From Nitrospinota bacterium (GTDB taxonomy: Bacteria; Nitrospinota_A; UBA7883; JACRGQ01), in contig JACQBU010000031.1 in the NCBI GenBank assembly GCA_016194375.1, positions 1 to 36,840 of the forward strand: DNA of 36,840 nt, in the 5' to 3' direction. This document shows positions 11,289-24,998 of the stretch, one piece after another. Position 1 is the first letter of the stretch; every line of letters starts with the position of its first letter. The position numbers were made by a program, and so were the translations under genes. Under the pieces are notes generated by a model. The model worked only from the letters and a program-made list of their open reading frames with translations, did no database searches and was not told the DNA's origin.

Positions 11289-11718
11289 GGTAGGCACACG
11301 CAATCCTGCGTGTGCTTCGGCGCGAAGCGACGAACAAGGGTTACCCCCACGGGACAATGTACGCCCAAGATTGTGCGTACATTGAAAAAGCACACGCAGG
11401 ATTGCCCTAGCCGCCAAGTTGCGGCTAGGACGAGAGCCTCGAAGCAAAGACGAATGTTGCGTGTGCCTACGGGAGCACGCGGCCGCTCAAAAGACTAAGG
11501 CCCGTTCCGGCATTTTCCTAAAGGCCGGCTTCTCCCTTTTGTGTTATTTTGTCGCCCCGCACGGCAGAACTGCCGGAGCCCGCCGATGAAAAGCAAATAA
11601 AAAAACAAACCGCCAAGTCGCCAGTAGGTACGCACATTCTTGTGTGTGCTTCGGCGCACGGCGACGAACCGGGTTGCCCCTCCGGGGCGATGTACACGCA
11701 GGATTGCGTGTACCTACC
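11289..11718. repeat. Family-B repeat cluster filling a 660-nt gene-free gap
   Basis: Two compound units lie at 11289-11470 and 11624-11718. The first holds hairpins with arms GCACACG/CGTGTGC and GTACGC/GCGTAC, and the CCTAGCCGC/GCGGCTAGG module (11406-11429, loop CAAGTT). The second holds hairpins around TTGCCCC and a final GTACACG arm pair. 11719-11809 carries two inverted copies of the GACGAGAAGCGAAAGC module. 11471-11623 shows nothing I can name. Confidence 0.8.
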
Positions 11719-13750: not shown

Positions 13751-14062
13751 ATGATGAAAAAAATAACCTGTTCCTTATTGGTATCATTCGCCCTTGTAGC
13801 CTGCTCGACGGGCCCGGCCACAAAGGCAAAGTTCGACGCCCTGCAACTCGGCATGACCTACGAGGAGGCGGTCAAGGTGATCGGCGCGCAGGGAGAACTC
13901 GTGTCCAACAAACGGCTGTCTCCCGGCATTCCGAAACCCGGGGAGAAGGACGAGCAAGTGTCGTACGCCAAGACTTACAAGTGGAAAAACTCGGCCGACA
14001 AATGGATAACCGCCGTCTTTGAGAACGGAAAGCTGACTCGAAAAGGGGAGTCCGGGCTTTAG
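13751..14062 (+). CDS. Small outer-membrane-type lipoprotein (SmpA/BLIP-like fold)
   Basis: A 103-residue lipoprotein. The signal sequence MMKKITCSLLVSFALVAC ends at lipobox Cys 18 (LVAC). The mature part reads KFDALQLGMTYEEAVKVIG, then a Lys/Pro loop, and YKWKNSADKWITAVFENGKLTRKGESGL. The GMTYEEA...G start and W....F.NGKL end are the pattern of SmpA/OmlA and DUF3862 (BLIP-like) domains, often small lipoproteins that help assemble or inhibit other proteins. ATG 13754 is an alternative start. It stands alone between repeat blocks. Function unknown. Confidence 0.7.
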   Translation: MMKKITCSLLVSFALVACSTGPATKAKFDALQLGMTYEEAVKVIGAQGELVSNKRLSPGIPKPGEKDEQVSYAKTYKWKNSADKWITAVFENGKLTRKGESGL

Positions 14063-14088
14063 GTTTGTTGGTTTCCTTGGTAGGTGCG

Positions 14089-14252
14089 GCTTTAGCCGCA
14101 CCGGTGCGACTAAAGTCGCACATACCGACGCACCTACCGACGCAGAACGAGGGCCTCTAAGCCGCCGGCGCGAACAGAATTGGTGGGTATTGGTAGGTGC
14201 GGATTCATCCGCGCCGATGGTGCGACATGGTGCGACTAAAGTCGCACCTACC
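14089..14252. repeat. Family-A tandem units upstream of RAYT1
   Basis: Two family-A units (14089 and 14192) are separated by a conserved spacer (CGCAGAACGAGGGCCTCTAA and on to GGTGGGTATT). Unit 1 has hairpins GTGCGGCT/AGCCGCAC and GTGCGACT/AGTCGCAC. The second unit ends 26 nt before the RAYT1 GTG start (2 nt before TTG 14255). Confidence 0.85.
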
Positions 14253-14278
14253 AATTGCGCTGTGTTATATGTGAACAA

Positions 14279-14779
14279 GTGGAAGAAAAGAAGATACGCC
14301 CCGATAAACTGCTTGCGTACAAACACCGCAAGCTTCCGCATTGGCAAGTCGGCGGGAGTTGGTACTTTGTCACGTTTCGAGCGCGCGTAAACCCACTGCC
14401 TGAACCCGCGAAAGACATGGTAAAGCGCTTTGTCGAATCCGGCCACGACAAAAGGTTCCTGTTGTCTGTCGCGGTCGTCATGCCGGACCACGCCCACCTC
14501 CTGCTTTGGCCGAAAGAAAAGTATTCCGGCGTCTTTTATTCCCTGAACGATATTTTGAGACCCATAAAAGGGGCGTCGTCGCGCGGGATTAACCTTTTTC
14601 TTGGGCGGCGCGGGCCGGTGTGGCAAAAGGAATCGTTCGACAGGATTATTCGCAACGAGCGCGAATGGCGGGAAAAATACGATTATATTTGTAACAACCC
14701 GGTAAAAAACGGTTTGGCGGAAAAGCCAAATGAATACCCCTGGCTTGTTTTTGGCGAGCAATTTATCAATCGTTATTGA
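14279..14779 (+). CDS. REP-associated tyrosine transposase (RAYT), IS200-like Y1 nuclease
   Basis: A 166-residue single-domain Y1 transposase. Early motif: KLPHWQVGGSWYFVTFR. The HUH site is VMPDHAHLLLWP (H71, H73), and WQKESFDRIIRNEREW leads to the catalytic-tyrosine helix REKYDYICNNPVKNGL (Tyr 134-136). RAYTs are single-copy HUH nucleases that cut and move REP palindromes; they lack the terminal ends of full IS200/IS605 elements. This gene sits inside a tandem array of family-A units with the same spacer on both sides (14089-14252 and 14801-15125), so family A is probably its substrate. Start is uncertain: GTG 14279 or TTG 14255, neither with a good RBS. It is less GC-rich than the neighbouring housekeeping genes. 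Confidence 0.88.
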   Translation: MEEKKIRPDKLLAYKHRKLPHWQVGGSWYFVTFRARVNPLPEPAKDMVKRFVESGHDKRFLLSVAVVMPDHAHLLLWPKEKYSGVFYSLNDILRPIKGASSRGINLFLGRRGPVWQKESFDRIIRNEREWREKYDYICNNPVKNGLAEKPNEYPWLVFGEQFINRY

Positions 14780-14800
14780 TGCATTGATTTGAATTGTATT

Positions 14801-15160
14801 GGTAGGTGCGGATTCATCCGCACCGATGGCGCGACATGGTGCGACTAAAGTCGCACCTACCGACGCACCTACCGACGCGGGACGAGGGCCTCTAAGCCGC
14901 CGGCGCGAACAGAATTGGTGGGTATTGGTAGGTGCGGATTCATCCGCGCCGATGGCGCGACATGGTGCGACTAAAGTCGCACCTACCGACGCACCTACCG
15001 ACGCACCTACCGACGCGGGACGAGGGCCTCTAAGCCGCCGGCGCGAACAGAATTGGTGGGTATTGGTAGGTGCGGATTCATCCGCGCCGATGGTGCGACA
15101 TGGTGCGACTAAAGTCGCACCTACCGACGCACGAGAAGACGAATGTTGCCGCGCCCACCA
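14801..15160. repeat. Family-A tandem array downstream of RAYT1
   Basis: Units start at 14801, 14927 and 15065, giving periods of 126 and 138 nt. The 12-nt difference is one extra copy of the small repeat CTACCGACGCAC. Between units lies the same spacer as upstream of RAYT1, containing AGGGCCTCTAAGCCGCCGG. The last unit runs into CGAGAAGACGAATGTTGC, a family-B module remnant. 15161-15299 has a CCCCCTTTAAGGGGG palindrome (about 15220) and nothing else I can name. Confidence 0.88.
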
Positions 15161-15299
15161 AAGCCGGGGGTTGCGTTGCGGCGCCGGTTTGCGGTAGAAT
15201 TTCTTGCCCGGTCGAAAACCCCCTTTAAGGGGGGCGTCCGGAACCGGTCGTCCGGCCCCGTTGGGGTGCGGGCGGCGCCCTTCAATGTAAGTGCGAATT

Positions 15300-15347
15300 G
15301 GTAGGTGCGGCTTTAGCCGCACCGGTGCGACTAAAGTCGCACCTACC
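15300..15347. repeat. Canonical 48-nt family-A unit
   Basis: It starts GGTAGG and ends CCTACC. It contains hairpin GTGCGGCT/AGCCGCAC (loop TT) and hairpin GTGCGACT/AGTCGCAC (loop AA), separated by CG at the CCGG junction. It lies 40 nt upstream of the -35 of the large lipoprotein gene. Confidence 0.88.
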
Positions 15348-15387
15348 GACCCGGGACGAGGAGGCTTTATAAATCGCAATTTTTTAG

Positions 15388-15415
15388 TTGACTTTACGGA
15401 CGAGGGTGGTATAAA
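15388..15415 (+). promoter_or_regulatory. Strong promoter TTGACT-16-TATAAA of the large lipoprotein
   Basis: TTGACT (15388-15393), 16-nt spacer, TATAAA (15410-15415) preceded by TGG (extended -10). It would give a leader of about 290 nt before ATG 15713. That leader includes the hairpin module at 15589-15612. Confidence 0.6.
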
Positions 15416-15574
15416 TCTACCCGTATTGCTATTTATAGGGAAGTAATTGGGAAATATGTTTAGTTTGCTTTGTTACCTTTCATTGTAAAAGGAGGTGCGA
15501 GAAGGGGAGAGGATCAAAGGCCGACGGACGCAATCCTTAGCGTGCCGTGCTTTGCCGGACTAGAACAGCGAAGC

Positions 15575-15660
15575 CGGGACAAAATTGCCCTACCCGCCAA
15601 GATGCGGGTAGGACGAGAAGCGAAGTGCAAGGACGGATGTTGCAAACGACAGAGAAAAAG
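15575..15660. repeat. Solitary family-B module in the lipoprotein leader
   Basis: TTGCCCTACCCGC (15585-15597), loop CAAGAT, GCGGGTAGG (15604-15612), then GACGAGAAGCGAAG and GGATGTTGC. The stem is a perfect 9 bp. The copy at 11406-11429 has CCTAGCCGC/GCGGCTAGG, also perfect, so the arms covary. The terminal GGTAGG/CCTACC boundaries are missing here. Confidence 0.7.
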
Positions 15661-15712
15661 TTAAACATAGGCTTTAAAGTTTTTTTTATTAATCTAATAG
15701 GAGGTACTAAAG

Positions 15713-18700
15713 ATGATATTTCGTGGAAAAAAACCCGTCACGGCGTTCTTGGCCGTGGCCGCCCTCGTTACGGCGTTCATCGCCTCGGGGTGTAGCGGTA
15801 ACAACAACACCAGCACCACCGGCTGGACGCTAGTCGGAAAGGTCATCGACGCCAACTCAAGGGCCGGCGTCCCCGGCGCGCGGGTCTGCGTAAAAATCAA
15901 CGGCGACTGGAACGGCCACTGCGCCAAGTCCTCGACCGGCGCTTCCGGCAACCTAACCGCCAACACGAAGCCGAAATATGACGCGACCACCACGGTCGGC
16001 TCCACGGTCGGCGACTTCTCCATAACCGGCCTCCCGTATCTTTCCATGCCCACCCCGGTTTCCGTCCAGGCGCCGGTTGGTAGCACCTATTCCGACACGA
16101 CAGTCAACGTCACCTTCGACCTCAACACCGGTTCCGGCGCCTCTGCCGGCAACGCCAACGGTCAGTTTGACATGGGCGTGGTCGCGATAGACAAAGGCGT
16201 CACCGTCAACATCTTCGTCGTAAGCACCAACGGTGCGGGCGGCGCGGCCTCGCCGGTCAACACCAACGGCGCGCCGGTTTGGTTCGCCACCAGCGGCAAC
16301 GGCGACGTGCTCGACGTCCCGGCCACCTACGTGTCGGGCAACCAATACACCATCACCCTGCCCAGGACCGGAGCCGGCGCCGTCGGCCTTCCCGTCGCCA
16401 ACTTCCTGGTCATCTCGCCCTTTAAGTCGGCGAGCGGCGCGTATTTCCAGGGCGCCACGACCAACGTCGTATGGCAGGATTTGACGGTCGAGGTTAACCC
16501 GACCATCAACCTCACGGTCGTCGCGACCAGCATGGTCACGCCTCTTACCACCGTGGCCACCAACTTCATAACAATGACGGACAACTCGGTTGTCACCAGC
16601 GCGGGCGTCCCCGGCGCCGGCGTTCCGATCGTCACGAACGGTCTTGCGAAAAACGGCGTCATAAAGCTCTACTTGAACGAGCCGATAACGCTTCCGACCA
16701 TGACCTCGGTTCCGGCTTGTCCCACGGGCGAGATCTGCCCGGTCAGCAACCCGTACGTGATCGCGCTTTCCTACGTGGATTACTTCAAGAAGCTCACCGC
16801 AACGGCCGCGACCGTCACGCAGGCGGTTACCGCGGCGGTTGACGCGACCGACCTGGCGTTGTTGACCATCACGCCGGCTAACGACCTTATCGAAAACCAG
16901 ACCTACGCCTTCGCGGGCAGGGTTCAGGCGGCCTCCGACTGGGCCAGCCAGCCCGGCACCAACGCCGACACGTCGGTCAACCTGGACACCGTCGTCAACG
17001 GCAGGGTCTTCTACATATACCCGGCATCAGCGACGGTCGCGGGCGCCATCGGGCCGATTCAGGTTGACAACGGCAACGGCTGGACCGCCTTCGCGGCCGG
17101 CGTCGTGGGAGCCTCCTCGGTCGCCTTGCCGAACGAGACCACCATGACCGTCACCTCGGCCACCGCGCCGTTCTTGCTCTTCCCGGAAATGGTCTGGGGT
17201 ACGGTCCGCCTGATTGACTACCCCGGCACGGCGTTGGAGTTTAACCCCCACGCCCTCACCGGCACCGTCATGTACAACACGTACAACCTCGTCAACACCA
17301 GGGCGGGCGTGCAGGTTACCGGTAACGGCACCAAGTTCGACGTCGAATTGCAGATTGGCGACGAGATAACCGACGCCAACGGCATAATTTGGAAGGTCAT
17401 CTCGATTGACAGCGCGACCTCGATGGTCGCGACCTCCACCAACAACAGCTCGGTGCCCAACCAAGGTCTGCCCGGCGCCACGGCGACCGTGACGCTTAGG
17501 GAAGGTTTCTACACCAGCGGCATGACCAACGCGCTCAACGACACCCTTCTCGGCTCACAGCGCGTTGCCTCCACCTACGTCCAAGACGCGAAGGCGGGCG
17601 ATGTTCTTAGCGTCGGCGCCAACCAGGTGACCGTGCTATCGGTCGCCAACCCGTCTGCCGGCTCCGGCTTGGGCAGGGAGCTCGTCGTTTCGATGGGACC
17701 CGTCAGCTCCACCGGCTCCGCGCTCATTGTTGAGAACAGCGGAAAAGGCTGGCTTGCCGGCGGCGTCGTTAGCGCCATCGCCCCGGCCGTCCTGGCCACG
17801 GGCACGCCCGGCTTCTTTGACGACGTAACGATATACGGCGCGTGGGGTAGCCCGGTTTCCGGCCTAGGCCCGTATGCCTCCGTTCTGGCCCTTAACGCGC
17901 TTGTGGCGTCCGGTGACGTCACGACGCAAAACAACGTCCCGCCGGTTCCGAACCTTTACGCCAGCCCGGTTACCAACATCATCAGCGCGCTTCCGTTGGT
18001 TGCAGGCGTCGGCGCAGGTTACACGACCGGCGCGCTCAGCTTGGCGACGGGCCACCAAGCCGGAGCCTGCAGTGGCGTTACCTTTACGACCGTCGGCGCC
18101 ACCCTTGTCGGCGGAGCCATCACCGCCACCGGCTCGAACTGTAAGAGCGGCGACATCCTGGCCGTTTACACCACCGGCGGGGCAACCCCCACGACCGGCG
18201 TTGGCTTGATACAGCTGACGGTGACGAACGGAACCGGAACCGCCACGGCCGCCGGCTACCAGATTCTTCTTGATAACGTCAGCTACATCGCGGGCGCGTA
18301 CAACACCTCGTACGTCGGCACCTACCTCAACAACAACGTCTCCCCGGCCGCAAGCGTTGCCGGCGGCGACGGCACCCTCACCGCGCCCGGCACCGGCATA
18401 GTGGCCGCCAGCACGACGAACGGCGGCATTGACATCGGTCTGGCCGTTCAGTCGGGCGGGGTAAACATCGGTAACAATCGCCAGAACCTCGGCCCGGCGG
18501 GTAGCGCAATAAACACCAGCTGTACCCCCACCCAGTCCGTCGCTTGCTTTGCCTCGTTCGGCTCGGCCGGCGCGATCGCGGGGGACGTCATCACGGTGTT
18601 CAACCCGTACGTCGGACTTTCCTCGGCCAACTTGGGTGTAATTCCCGTTACCGCTCCCGCGGGGTTCGTCACGTCCCCCTCGAACGGAACCATCAGGATT

Positions 18701-19411
18701 ACGGCGGTTGACTCGGCCTCGGGCCGCGTCTCGGCGGGCGTCGTGACAAGCTCGGGCGCGTTCTACCCGAGCGCGGCGGCCGGCACCCTCTATTACTTCG
18801 AGGGTGGCGTGACGACGCACTTCACCTCGATCGTCCTCAGCGGCGGCGTTACGGCGGTCAACACCGTCCCCAACGTTGCGTACGCCACCAACGGCGCCAC
18901 GGTTACCCTGGGTTCCAACACCGCAAGGGGCATAACCAACGACCTCAAGAAATTTGGCGGACCGCAGGTTAGGGCGCTTGAGGACTACGTTTTGGCGAAC
19001 GCAGGGTCGCCCGCCGACATCGCGGGCTTGACGTATTCAATCGAATACACCGCCGCTTGCGGCCTCAACCAGATCAACGGCGGCGGCCCCAAAGCCCTGC
19101 CGGGAAACCTTGCCGCGGTCTATGGCCAAATAGCATGGCTCGACAGGACGGTTGACAGCGGCAACCTCTTCAACATCGGCGGGTTCGACTGGACGGCCGG
19201 TCCTGCTCTTGTCTGCAACATGAAAAATCCGTCCATGTTCGGATGGGCCCTGGGCGGCGGCCACACCATCCCGGCCGGCGGACCGTTGGCCGGCTACGCG
19301 GTGTCCGACAGCACGTCCGGCACTCCGTTGCAGATACGGTTGGACATCAACGTGGTTGACATGGCCGGCAACAGCTTGAAGGCCACGGATCAATCGTACG
19401 ACGTCCACTAA
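15713..19411 (+). CDS. Very large secreted lipoprotein (1232 aa) with Ig-like domains
   Basis: The signal sequence MIFRGKKPVTAFLAVAALVT leads to lipobox ASGC (Cys 27). A carboxypeptidase-regulatory-like or Ig-like domain follows (WTLVGKVIDANSRAGVPGARV, residues about 38-130). Near residues 310-345 a segment IKLYLNEPITLP resembles an SbsA-type Big_5 Ig-like strand. The rest is Gly/Ala/Thr/Val/Asn-rich beta sequence with few charges, typical of surface adhesins or matrix proteins. The C-terminus ends LDINVVDMAGNSLKATDQSYDVH, another Ig-like edge. It has a strong AGGAGG RBS, a good promoter and a good terminator (19503), so it is a single-gene transcription unit. No anchoring or autotransporter domain is visible beyond the lipid. 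Ligand unknown. Confidence 0.75.
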   Translation: MIFRGKKPVTAFLAVAALVTAFIASGCSGNNNTSTTGWTLVGKVIDANSRAGVPGARVCVKINGDWNGHCAKSSTGASGNLTANTKPKYDATTTVGSTVGDFSITGLPYLSMPTPVSVQAPVGSTYSDTTVNVTFDLNTGSGASAGNANGQFDMGVVAIDKGVTVNIFVVSTNGAGGAASPVNTNGAPVWFATSGNGDVLDVPATYVSGNQYTITLPRTGAGAVGLPVANFLVISPFKSASGAYFQGATTNVVWQDLTVEVNPTINLTVVATSMVTPLTTVATNFITMTDNSVVTSAGVPGAGVPIVTNGLAKNGVIKLYLNEPITLPTMTSVPACPTGEICPVSNPYVIALSYVDYFKKLTATAATVTQAVTAAVDATDLALLTITPANDLIENQTYAFAGRVQAASDWASQPGTNADTSVNLDTVVNGRVFYIYPASATVAGAIGPIQVDNGNGWTAFAAGVVGASSVALPNETTMTVTSATAPFLLFPEMVWGTVRLIDYPGTALEFNPHALTGTVMYNTYNLVNTRAGVQVTGNGTKFDVELQIGDEITDANGIIWKVISIDSATSMVATSTNNSSVPNQGLPGATATVTLREGFYTSGMTNALNDTLLGSQRVASTYVQDAKAGDVLSVGANQVTVLSVANPSAGSGLGRELVVSMGPVSSTGSALIVENSGKGWLAGGVVSAIAPAVLATGTPGFFDDVTIYGAWGSPVSGLGPYASVLALNALVASGDVTTQNNVPPVPNLYASPVTNIISALPLVAGVGAGYTTGALSLATGHQAGACSGVTFTTVGATLVGGAITATGSNCKSGDILAVYTTGGATPTTGVGLIQLTVTNGTGTATAAGYQILLDNVSYIAGAYNTSYVGTYLNNNVSPAASVAGGDGTLTAPGTGIVAASTTNGGIDIGLAVQSGGVNIGNNRQNLGPAGSAINTSCTPTQSVACFASFGSAGAIAGDVITVFNPYVGLSSANLGVIPVTAPAGFVTSPSNGTIRITAVDSASGRVSAGVVTSSGAFYPSAAAGTLYYFEGGVTTHFTSIVLSGGVTAVNTVPNVAYATNGATVTLGSNTARGITNDLKKFGGPQVRALEDYVLANAGSPADIAGLTYSIEYTAACGLNQINGGGPKALPGNLAAVYGQIAWLDRTVDSGNLFNIGGFDWTAGPALVCNMKNPSMFGWALGGGHTIPAGGPLAGYAVSDSTSGTPLQIRLDINVVDMAGNSLKATDQSYDVH

Positions 19412-19425
19412 GTCCTAGCCTCTTT

Positions 19426-19485
19426 CTCCTCCCCTGAAAAGGGGAGGACGAAGGAGGGGGTGGGTACACACAATCTTGTGTGTAC
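19426..19485. repeat. CCTCCCCT palindrome plus family-B hairpin
   Basis: CCTCCCCT/AGGGGAGG (19428-19447) with tail GACGAAGGAGGGGGTGGG, then a hairpin with arms GTACACA/TGTGTAC around CAATCTTG. The palindrome is of the same family as the one embedded in proS. Confidence 0.75.
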
Positions 19486-19502
19486 TTGCTGATTCGAATC
19501 TC

Positions 19503-19536
19503 AAAGCCCCGTGGAACTCCACGGGGCTTTTTTTTT
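19503..19536 (+). terminator. Rho-independent terminator of the large lipoprotein gene
   Basis: The stem AAAGCCCCGTGGA (19503-19515) pairs with TCCACGGGGCTTT (19518-19530) across a 2-nt loop and is followed by a T run. A 67-nt stretch from inside this terminator through the following repeat start (19507-19573) is repeated exactly at 23127-23193. Confidence 0.9.
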
Positions 19537-19548
19537 GCCCTGAATTTC

Positions 19549-19777
19549 GGTAGGTACACGCAATCCTGCGTGTACGTTGCCCCGTCAGGGGCAACCCATG
19601 TTCGCCGCTTCGCGCCGAAGCACACACAAGATTGTGTGTGCCTACCGGTTCGCCGCTTCGCGCCGAAGCACACGCAATCTTGCGTGTACATTTTTCGGTA
19701 GGTACACGCAATCCTGCGTGTACGTTGCCCCGTCAGGGGCAACCCATGTTCGCCGCTTCGCGCCGAAGCACACACAC
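19549..19777. repeat. Family-B array upstream of RAYT2
   Basis: A complete 98-nt unit (19549-19646), a partial one (19647-19690) and a third unit (19698-19777) identical to the first 80 nt of unit one. In the third unit the last hairpin is cut off where the RAYT2 coding similarity begins. Arms include GTACACG/CGTGTAC around CAATCCTG. Confidence 0.88.
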
Positions 19778-19785
19778 CAAAAAAC

Positions 19786-20250
19786 CTCGTCATCACCAAA
19801 CGGAAACTGCCCCATTGGCAAATCGGAGGTTCATGGTATTTCGTCACCTTTCGGGCAAAGAACCCGCTTTCTCCCAAGGCGCGAACCATCGTCGCCGAAT
19901 GTGTCATATACAACCATAAAAAGAAATATGACCTTGGCGTTGCAGTGGTGATGCCGGATCACGTTCATATCCTTCTGCATCCCATTGAGAAGGACGATAA
20001 ATCATATTTCACGCTTACTGAGATTATGAGGGCCATAAAAGGCATAGCCGGTCGAAAAATCAACTTTTTAGACAAACGGACGGGTTCCATTTGGCAAAAG
20101 GAATCGTTTGACCGCATCGTCCGCAATGAAAACGAGTGGTCGGAAAAATATCAATACATCCGCAATAATGCGATAAAAGCGGGCCTTGCCGACACGGCCG
20201 AGGGTTATGAGTGGCTATTAGAACGCGATGATTTTAATAAGCGTTTTTGA
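19786..20250 (+). CDS. Second RAYT transposase, 5' end fused into a repeat, no normal start codon
   Basis: Protein similarity starts at about 19786 (LVITKRKLPHWQIGGSWYFV), includes the HUH motif VMPDHVHILLHP and the tyrosine helix EWSEKYQYIRNNAIKAGL, and ends at TGA 20250: about 154 residues. It is clearly paralogous to the gene at 14279 (LPHWQ.GGSWYFVTFRA, WQKESFDRI.RNE.EW). The reading frame is open upstream to a TAG at 19699-19701 but contains no ATG, GTG or TTG before ATG 19945, which would be too late to make the N-terminal strand. So either it starts at a rare codon within the repeat, or its 5' end was replaced by repeat sequence and it is decaying. Family-B arrays flank it on both sides. 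Confidence 0.8.
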   Translation, partial: LVITKRKLPHWQIGGSWYFVTFRAKNPLSPKARTIVAECVIYNHKKKYDLGVAVVMPDHVHILLHPIEKDDKSYFTLTEIMRAIKGIAGRKINFLDKRTGSIWQKESFDRIVRNENEWSEKYQYIRNNAIKAGLADTAEGYEWLLERDDFNKRF

Positions 20251-20252
20251 TT

Positions 20253-20537
20253 GGTAGGTACACGCATTCCTGCGTGTACATTTTCCGGTAGGTACGGGCA
20301 ATCTTGCGTGTACTTCGGCGCGAAGCGGCGAACAGGGGTTGGGTTGCCCCTTCGGGGCAACGTACACACAGGATTGTGTGTACCTACCGAAAAATGCACA
20401 CGCAGGATTGCCGCGCCTACCAGACGATCGCATTGGTAGGGGAGGCAATCTTGCCTCCCGTTGCCCCTTCGGGGCAACGTACACACAAGATTGTGTGTAC
20501 CCACCGAAAAATGCACGGCAGGATTGCCGCGCCTACC
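20253..20537. repeat. Family-B array downstream of RAYT2
   Basis: At least five hairpin units: GTACACG arms (20258), GTACGGG-type, TTGCCCC/GGGGCAA at 20343 and 20460, GTACACA/TGTGTAC near 20363 and 20482, and GGGAGG/CCTCCC around CAATCTTG at 20437-20459. Two near-identical segments (about 20343-20420 and 20460-20537) form a direct repeat. 20538-20582 holds nothing further. Confidence 0.85.
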
Positions 20538-23168: not shown

Positions 23169-23400
23169 GGTAGGTACACGCAATCCTGCGTGTGCATTTT
23201 TCGGTAGGTACATGCAATCCTGCCTCCCGTTGCCCCGACAGGGGCAAGAACGTGTTGGCGCGTTGCGCCAATGCACGGCAGGATTGCCCTGCCCGCCAAG
23301 TTGCGGCCAGGACGAGAAGCGAAAGCGGAGACGAATGTTGCCGCGCCTACCGGTTCGTCGCTTTGCGCCGAAGGTACAGGCAAGATTGCCCGTACCCACC
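23169..23400. repeat. Family-B array
   Basis: It includes the GTACACG-arm unit (23169), a GGTAGGTACATGCAATCCTG partial, the TTGCCCC/GGGGCAA hairpin, and the long module from GCACGGCAGGATTGCCC through GCGGCCAGGACGAGAAGCG to the GTTGCCGCGCCTACC end (23273-23350). The same long module recurs at 24775-24851. Confidence 0.85.
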
Positions 23401-24709: not shown

Positions 24710-24998
24710 GGTAGGGGAGGCAATCTCGCCTCCCTATGATTGCGTTGGTAGGGGCGACAATCCTGTCGCCCTGCACGGCAGGATTGCCCTGCCCGCCAAG
24801 TTGCGGCCAGGACGAGAAGCGAAAGCGGAGACGAATGTTGCCGCGCCTACCGGTTCGTCGCTTTGCGCCGAAGCACACGCAATCCTGTGTGTACATTTTT
24901 CGGTAGGTACACGCAATCCTGCGTGTACATTGCCCCCCAGGGGCAATCCTTGTTCGCCGCTTCGCGCCGAAGCACACACAAGAATGTGTGTACCTACC
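24710..24998. repeat. Family-B array downstream of ndk
   Basis: Units with arms GGGAGG/CCTCCC (core CAATCTCG), GGCGA/TCGCC (core CAATCCTG, 24757), the long module 24775-24851, GTACACG/CGTGTAC (24905), TTGCCCC/GGGGCAA, the CTTCGCGCCGAAG hairpin and a last ACACACA/TGTGTGT hairpin. It ends one base from the ndk stop, so it may protect or end the ndk mRNA. It fills the gap between the two genes. Confidence 0.85.

Follow-up and report, generated by a model that had tools for sequence, protein, structure and literature searches.

Two RAYT genes, each within its own REP repeat family, on one contig of a Nitrospinota bacterium

The window analyzed here is a stretch of 36,840 nucleotides that makes up one entire contig (C31) of a Nitrospinota assembly of 1.91 Mb, 135 contigs and 94% completeness. 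It carries two genes for REP-associated tyrosine transposases (RAYT/TnpA_REP), referred to as RAYT1 and RAYT2, which lie about 5 kb apart. Each gene sits among palindromic REP repeats of a separate family (A and B, respectively), which occur singly or as inverted pairs (REPINs). This bears out a sequence-only reading of the window, which had placed two RAYT genes each inside a repeat family of its own. An Rfam search of the window gave no match. The features are as follows.

14079..14126, unstranded, family-A REPIN with right end CATACC
14127..14191, unstranded, array spacer, matching 14862-14926 beyond RAYT1 at 63/65 positions
14192..14252, unstranded, family-A REPIN immediately upstream of RAYT1
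14279..14779, + strand, RAYT1, REP-associated tyrosine transposase (RAYT/TnpA_REP), 166 aa, GTG start (NF047646, 4er8 fold match)
14801..14861, unstranded, family-A REPIN, 21 nt past the RAYT1 stop
14927..14987, unstranded, family-A REPIN, array member
15065..15125, unstranded, family-A REPIN, array member
15300..15347, unstranded, compact 48-nt family-A REPIN
19459..19485, + strand, single family-B REP with a GTGG foot
19549..19646, unstranded, complete family-B REPIN, fold z -7.8
19697..19776, unstranded, cut-off family-B REPIN, joined directly to the RAYT2 coding frame
19777..20250, + strand, RAYT2, second RAYT, body open and intact, lacking the start codon, the -10 box and the initial residues (NF047646)
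20253..20279, + strand, family-B REP, 2 nt past the RAYT2 stop
20287..20388, unstranded, family-B REPIN with the inner modules in reversed order
20435..20537, unstranded, composite B-type REPIN (GGGAGGCA stem at left) and another B-type REP

Both genes match the NCBIfam model NF047646 (REP_Tyr_transpos), RAYT1 with 87.6 bits and RAYT2 with 80.4 bits, above its curated cut-off of 80. The RAYT score with an IS200 model falls far under that model's cut-off, and Pfam Y1_Tnp, which is weak by itself, gives RAYT1 17.8 bits, also under cut-off. The HUH motif (H71, H73) and the catalytic tyrosine (Y136) are invariant across 15 aligned sequences that include RAYT1 and RAYT2. A profile comparison returned 4er8, the E. 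coli TnpA_REP-REP complex, as the best match, and the same entry is the best fold match of the predicted RAYT1 structure (pLDDT 83, E 1.9e-9), followed by 2xma (E 2.8e-6). As modeled, the Y1 HUH fold of RAYT1 is closer to TnpA_REP than to IS608/ISDra2. An IS200/IS605 insertion sequence, that is, a multi-copy element with its own transposase, was rejected because each RAYT is single-copy and the repeats alone are multi-copy. RAYT1 and RAYT2, with one copy each, are the only close RAYTs of this genome, which has two weaker Y1 matches on contigs C44 and C14. The two proteins are 53-54% identical, which is typical of pairs in this bacterial family. Between the genes, positions 15713-19411 hold a 1232-aa ORF that appears secreted or lipoprotein-like and has no Pfam match.

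RAYT1 is embedded in a tandem array of family-A REPINs, in which the REP reads GTAG followed by GTGCGRM-TTYA-KYCGCAC and the inverted partners stand 2-15 nt apart. The claim of matching spacers on both sides of RAYT1 stands, given their identity at 63 of 65 positions. The window contains 59 occurrences of GGTAGG where 13 would be expected, and 20 of the A REP pattern where 1.1 would be expected; 12 A REPs fall within 1.3 kb around RAYT1 (Poisson p < 1e-15). Family-A and family-B units fold far better than their shuffles (z -4.4 to -8.1). Across 14126-15011, A units carry one to three copies of the 12-mer CCTACCGACGCA at their right ends, as though part of the CTAC end had been copied again. 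The minus strand of 13784-15379 holds a 531-aa open frame antisense to the array and RAYT1, which the periodicity of the repeats probably explains. Elsewhere in the window, a 102-nt stretch is duplicated exactly at 23272-23373 and 24772-24873, with diverged copies at 11396 and 15579. It contains TTGCCGCGCCTACC and a CCGCCAAGTTGCGG hairpin and looks like a further repeat type beside REPs.

The family-B REP consists of GTAG followed by GTACACGCA-NTCY-TGCGTGTAC, and its stem variants compensate. Its REPINs are inverted REP pairs of 95-98 nt with two extra hairpins between the REPs; the complete unit at 19549..19646 runs in the order REP, TTGCCCC hairpin, TTCGCCGC..GCGCCGAA hairpin, inverted REP. 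Within 1.1 kb around RAYT2 lie 7 of the 30 B REPs found with a wide pattern (Poisson p < 1e-15). Genome-wide pattern searches, whose counts are lower bounds, gave 58 matches for the A REP against 0 for a reversed control and 26 for the B REP against 0 in its control. A REPs sit within 50-400 nt of the ends of contigs C34, C38, C20 and C88; the assembly is thus probably interrupted by REP arrays, and the counts are to be read as minima.

The sequence-only reading had also given RAYT2 a start at 19786 with B units on both sides; the flanking units are present, but the gene has no start codon and its left unit is cut off at 80 nt. Positions 19697-19776 are identical to the first 80 nt of the complete REPIN (19549-19628), and the last 18 nt, with the closing CCTACC end, are missing. 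No ATG, GTG or TTG lies in frame ahead of 19945, which is just upstream of the HUH codons. RAYT2 has neither a -10 box nor a start, its 5' end being replaced by the cut-off REPIN, and is the sole locus without an in-frame start among the 20 RAYT loci of the family that were scanned. An in-frame start preceded by a TATAAT-like box, usually at a distance of 6 nt, is present at 18 of these 20 loci, compared to 15/69 RAYT loci outside the family, 13/73 long ORFs and 2.6% of random ATG/GTG. RAYT1, one of the two family loci without the standard box, has a weaker TATATG 7 nt ahead of its GTG. Among the 17 family RAYT loci inspected, a Shine-Dalgarno-like core was found at none where scored, compared to 27 of 73 long ORFs. 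Judged from these sequence signals, the RAYT genes of the family look leaderless; loci with this appearance include L006, L007, L008, L009 and L021. At another locus, L019, the RAYT stop codon seems to be supplied by the GTAG foot of the downstream REP, through its TAG (TGG TAG GTC, ~1479-1501).

The family comparison covered 11 genomes, namely the window's genome (G000) and ten others, including G005 and G008. RAYT matches, some of them broken, occur in nine of the ten others, and few matches lie outside the family; the named relatives of the window's RAYTs come from Nitrospinota/Nitrospinales assemblies, some with a groundwater source. RAYT and REP distances are correlated within the family (Mantel rho 0.32, p 0.0004), among RAYTs under 70% identity only (rho 0.27, p 0.0036) and over 67 RAYT/REP pairs (rho 0.36, p 0.001). 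When six REP classes were counted across the 11 genomes, 195 of 254 REPs fell in the 10 of 66 cells with a matching RAYT (permutation p 5e-5), where matching was assigned via the repeats flanking each RAYT and class A was set as matched in G000 only. The expectation that repeat and enzyme diverge together is therefore upheld (Mantel p<=0.004 and the permutation result). L006/L007, the closest relatives of RAYT1, carry the REPs nearest to A, and L014/L019/L030, the closest relatives of RAYT2, are among the loci with the REPs nearest to B. Nearly all RAYTs of the family are flanked by GT[AG]G hairpins of their own.

The co-occurrence of each repeat family with its matching RAYT holds for B and only in part for A. 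Strict-form B REPs number 22 in the window's genome and 0 in the ten others; the wide form gives 30 in G000, 11 in G005 and 0 in the remaining nine, and G005 has a separate, frameshifted RAYT flanked by B-type REPs. In the same 11-genome count, A REPs number 52 in the window's genome, 17 in G005 and 16 in G008, yet neither of the latter two has a RAYT1 relative closer than 56%. No RAYT remnants were found beside their A-like REPs in the stretches examined. REP and RAYT are thus not strictly coupled. Possible explanations are RAYT gene loss, MAG gaps or cross-use; loss of the RAYT or repeat switching is the explanation that Nunvar et al. gave for such exceptions (PMC3686654). Apart from the A-like REPs of G005 and G008, each repeat is specific to its RAYT lineage.

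A different division of labor emerges between the outer and inner hairpins of the REPINs than the one first proposed, in which the internal hairpins set the substrate range. The inner stems TTGCCCC, TTGGCGC and TCGGCCC are found in various genomes next to REPs of various classes, usually at a distance of 1 nt, and are common to REPINs of different RAYTs, while the outer stem-loop follows the RAYT. Because the inner stems recur across REP classes, we assign the address to the outer stem-loop and regard the inner part as a shared module. All 41 inner-stem copies lie <=60 nt from a REP-like hairpin, compared to 15% of the window, a descriptive figure, as the relatives' loci were chosen for their RAYTs. 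The outer REPs of two G008 REPINs separated by 1.4 kb differ (GTACACAA-TTTA in one, GTGCGAC-TTCA in the other), yet both enclose the same two inner stems. The spacer of the A-type REP is 2-15 nt in the window's genome, short in most G005 copies and of the two-hairpin form in G008. Such sharing would fit an exchange of modules as well as descent from a common ancestor in which the outer stems turned over quickly. A tentative extension, which we consider possible though doubtful, is that the REPINs are modular, with a RAYT-specific outer stem-loop and freely combined inner hairpins that are kept by selection or exchange and have a separate function, either in moving REPINs or as RNA/DNA elements of the host. 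It further holds that RAYT genes yield leaderless transcripts from a promoter located after the upstream REP and ahead of the start codon, an arrangement through which REP binding could regulate the enzyme.

Both genes carry GTAG-type repeats and lie 5 kb apart on one contig, as would be expected if one RAYT had been copied recently in this genome and the second copy had changed its repeat, giving A and B. A RAYT1+RAYT2 clade also survives the AU test (p 0.42), and the RAYT tree, a deep comb, does not show it. Against such a duplication, their 53-54% identity is no higher than that to RAYTs of other genera, and either protein resembles RAYTs of other genomes roughly as much as it does its neighbor; the nearest relatives are L006/L007 for RAYT1 and L019/L014 for RAYT2; and B-type REPs also occur in G005, beside its separate frameshifted RAYT. 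We therefore consider a recent duplication improbable, and the two pairs are better described as coming from two old RAYT lineages of the bacterial family than from a visible local split, contrary to the earlier proposal that one local enzyme family had divided. Nor do the shared GGTAGG/CCTACC ends mark a recent split: repeated GT[AG]G hairpins flank 49 of 69 RAYT loci of other phyla, so the ends correspond to the general REP foot. The loops at these loci are nearly all pyrimidine (TTCY, CTCY, TCY, CCCY), and TTYA, the family-A loop, turned up in this bacterial family only. As a clade marker, TTYA versus NTCY was rejected (RAYT1, L009 and L027 group only weakly, 57/83); L012 (TTYA) and L023 (NTCY) are probable sisters, so loop switches look repeated. 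A sister relationship of RAYT2 and L014 was not borne out by the tree. Host-maintained hairpins, such as terminators or gyrase or RNA-stability sites, among which RAYT genes merely landed, would suit repeats that are intergenic, can fold as single strands and share inner hairpins between several families. We give this explanation very little credence, as the REP type tracks the RAYT across 67 loci and 11 genomes and such repeats flank most RAYTs examined.

The state of RAYT2 allows a further alternative, in which the living genome has an intact gene and the start was lost only in the assembly, through a chimaera formed where 80-84 nt of REPIN sequence are duplicated. The junction falls exactly at the end of the exact repeat of 19545-19628, and the coding frame is undamaged elsewhere. 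However, the same upstream composite (92 nt, 95%) was assembled a second time at 24845-24936, and assemblers usually break, and seldom mis-join, at such repeats. A chimaera is rather unlikely in our view. The RAYT2/B pair is probably orphaned, since a deletion or REPIN rearrangement appears to have removed the start codon and the promoter -10 box; the undamaged body implies that the loss, if real, was recent. The RAYT1/A pair is probably still working.

Taken together, the window holds a pair of REPtrons of old lineages, in which each RAYT has its own REPs, RAYT1/A probably working and RAYT2/B probably orphaned; we put the probability of this reading at about 85%. Gene identity, flanking repeats, genome-wide dispersal and matched RAYT/REP divergence across the family were observed. 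By analogy with work in E. coli and S. maltophilia, from which REP binding, cleavage and mobilization are carried over, each RAYT would be an HUH/Tyr single-strand endonuclease that recognizes its own REP on one strand. The guide would be the GTAG foot, in line with the description of GT[AG]G as the equivalent of a guide with a role in selecting the cleavage site (PMC8266576), and the address would be the stem-loop next to it (GTGCGRM-TTYA for A, GTACACGCA-NTCY for B). The enzyme would cut and rejoin single-stranded REPIN DNA, copying REPINs around the genome, and copies would pile up next to the RAYT gene.

This is a published kind of system in a well-formed example, and the pairing itself is expected. 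The REPtrons of Pseudomonas and Stenotrophomonas (Nunvar et al. 2013, PMC3686654; Di Nocera et al. 2013, PMC3733652) likewise comprise several RAYTs per genome with private GT[AG]G REPs, often in inverted pairs, REP abundance that mostly tracks the cognate RAYT with exceptions, pseudogenized RAYTs and REP switching at orthologous RAYTs. The suggestion of a new, branching system is not supported, as several repeat-specific REPtrons per genome are already on record (PMC3733652, PMC6006769, PMC3686654). What differs here is the hosts, the NTCY/TTYA loops and the four-hairpin REPINs of 90-98 nt with inner hairpins common to families. By motif only, the window's RAYTs resemble TnpA_REP group 3 / subclass 2.5-2.7 (Corneloup et al. 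2021, PMC8266576; Quentin et al. 2018, PMC6006769), with which they share WQxxxxDRxxR (D and R being E. coli positions 100 and 101), extra N-terminal residues, the lack of a long C-terminal tail, and perfect palindromes with a short conserved loop. As in the REPINs of Bertels and Rainey (2011, PMC3116915), two inverted REPs form the unit thought to be mobile, but family B and most relatives add two hairpins between the REPs, and family A is nearly spacer-free here. The CGTC-3 REP dimers of A. tumefaciens (PMC3733652) also have two stem-loops at the spacer ends, whereas in the present family the REP next to a given inner stem, mostly 1 nt off, varies between genomes.

The details that we report as new are a RAYT2 without a start and the leaderless-looking RAYT genes of the family; in the paper collection searched, no relevant work on leaderless RAYT genes or Nitrospinota REPs was found. 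RAYT-REP co-evolution has been studied mainly in gammaproteobacteria. Leads for follow-up are the shared inner modules, the RAYT genes that look leaderless, and the apparent capture of a RAYT in the course of being lost. With many RAYT lineages and readable cognate repeats, the specificity code (loop versus stem) is testable in this family, and the same genomes make the fate of repeats after RAYT loss testable as well.
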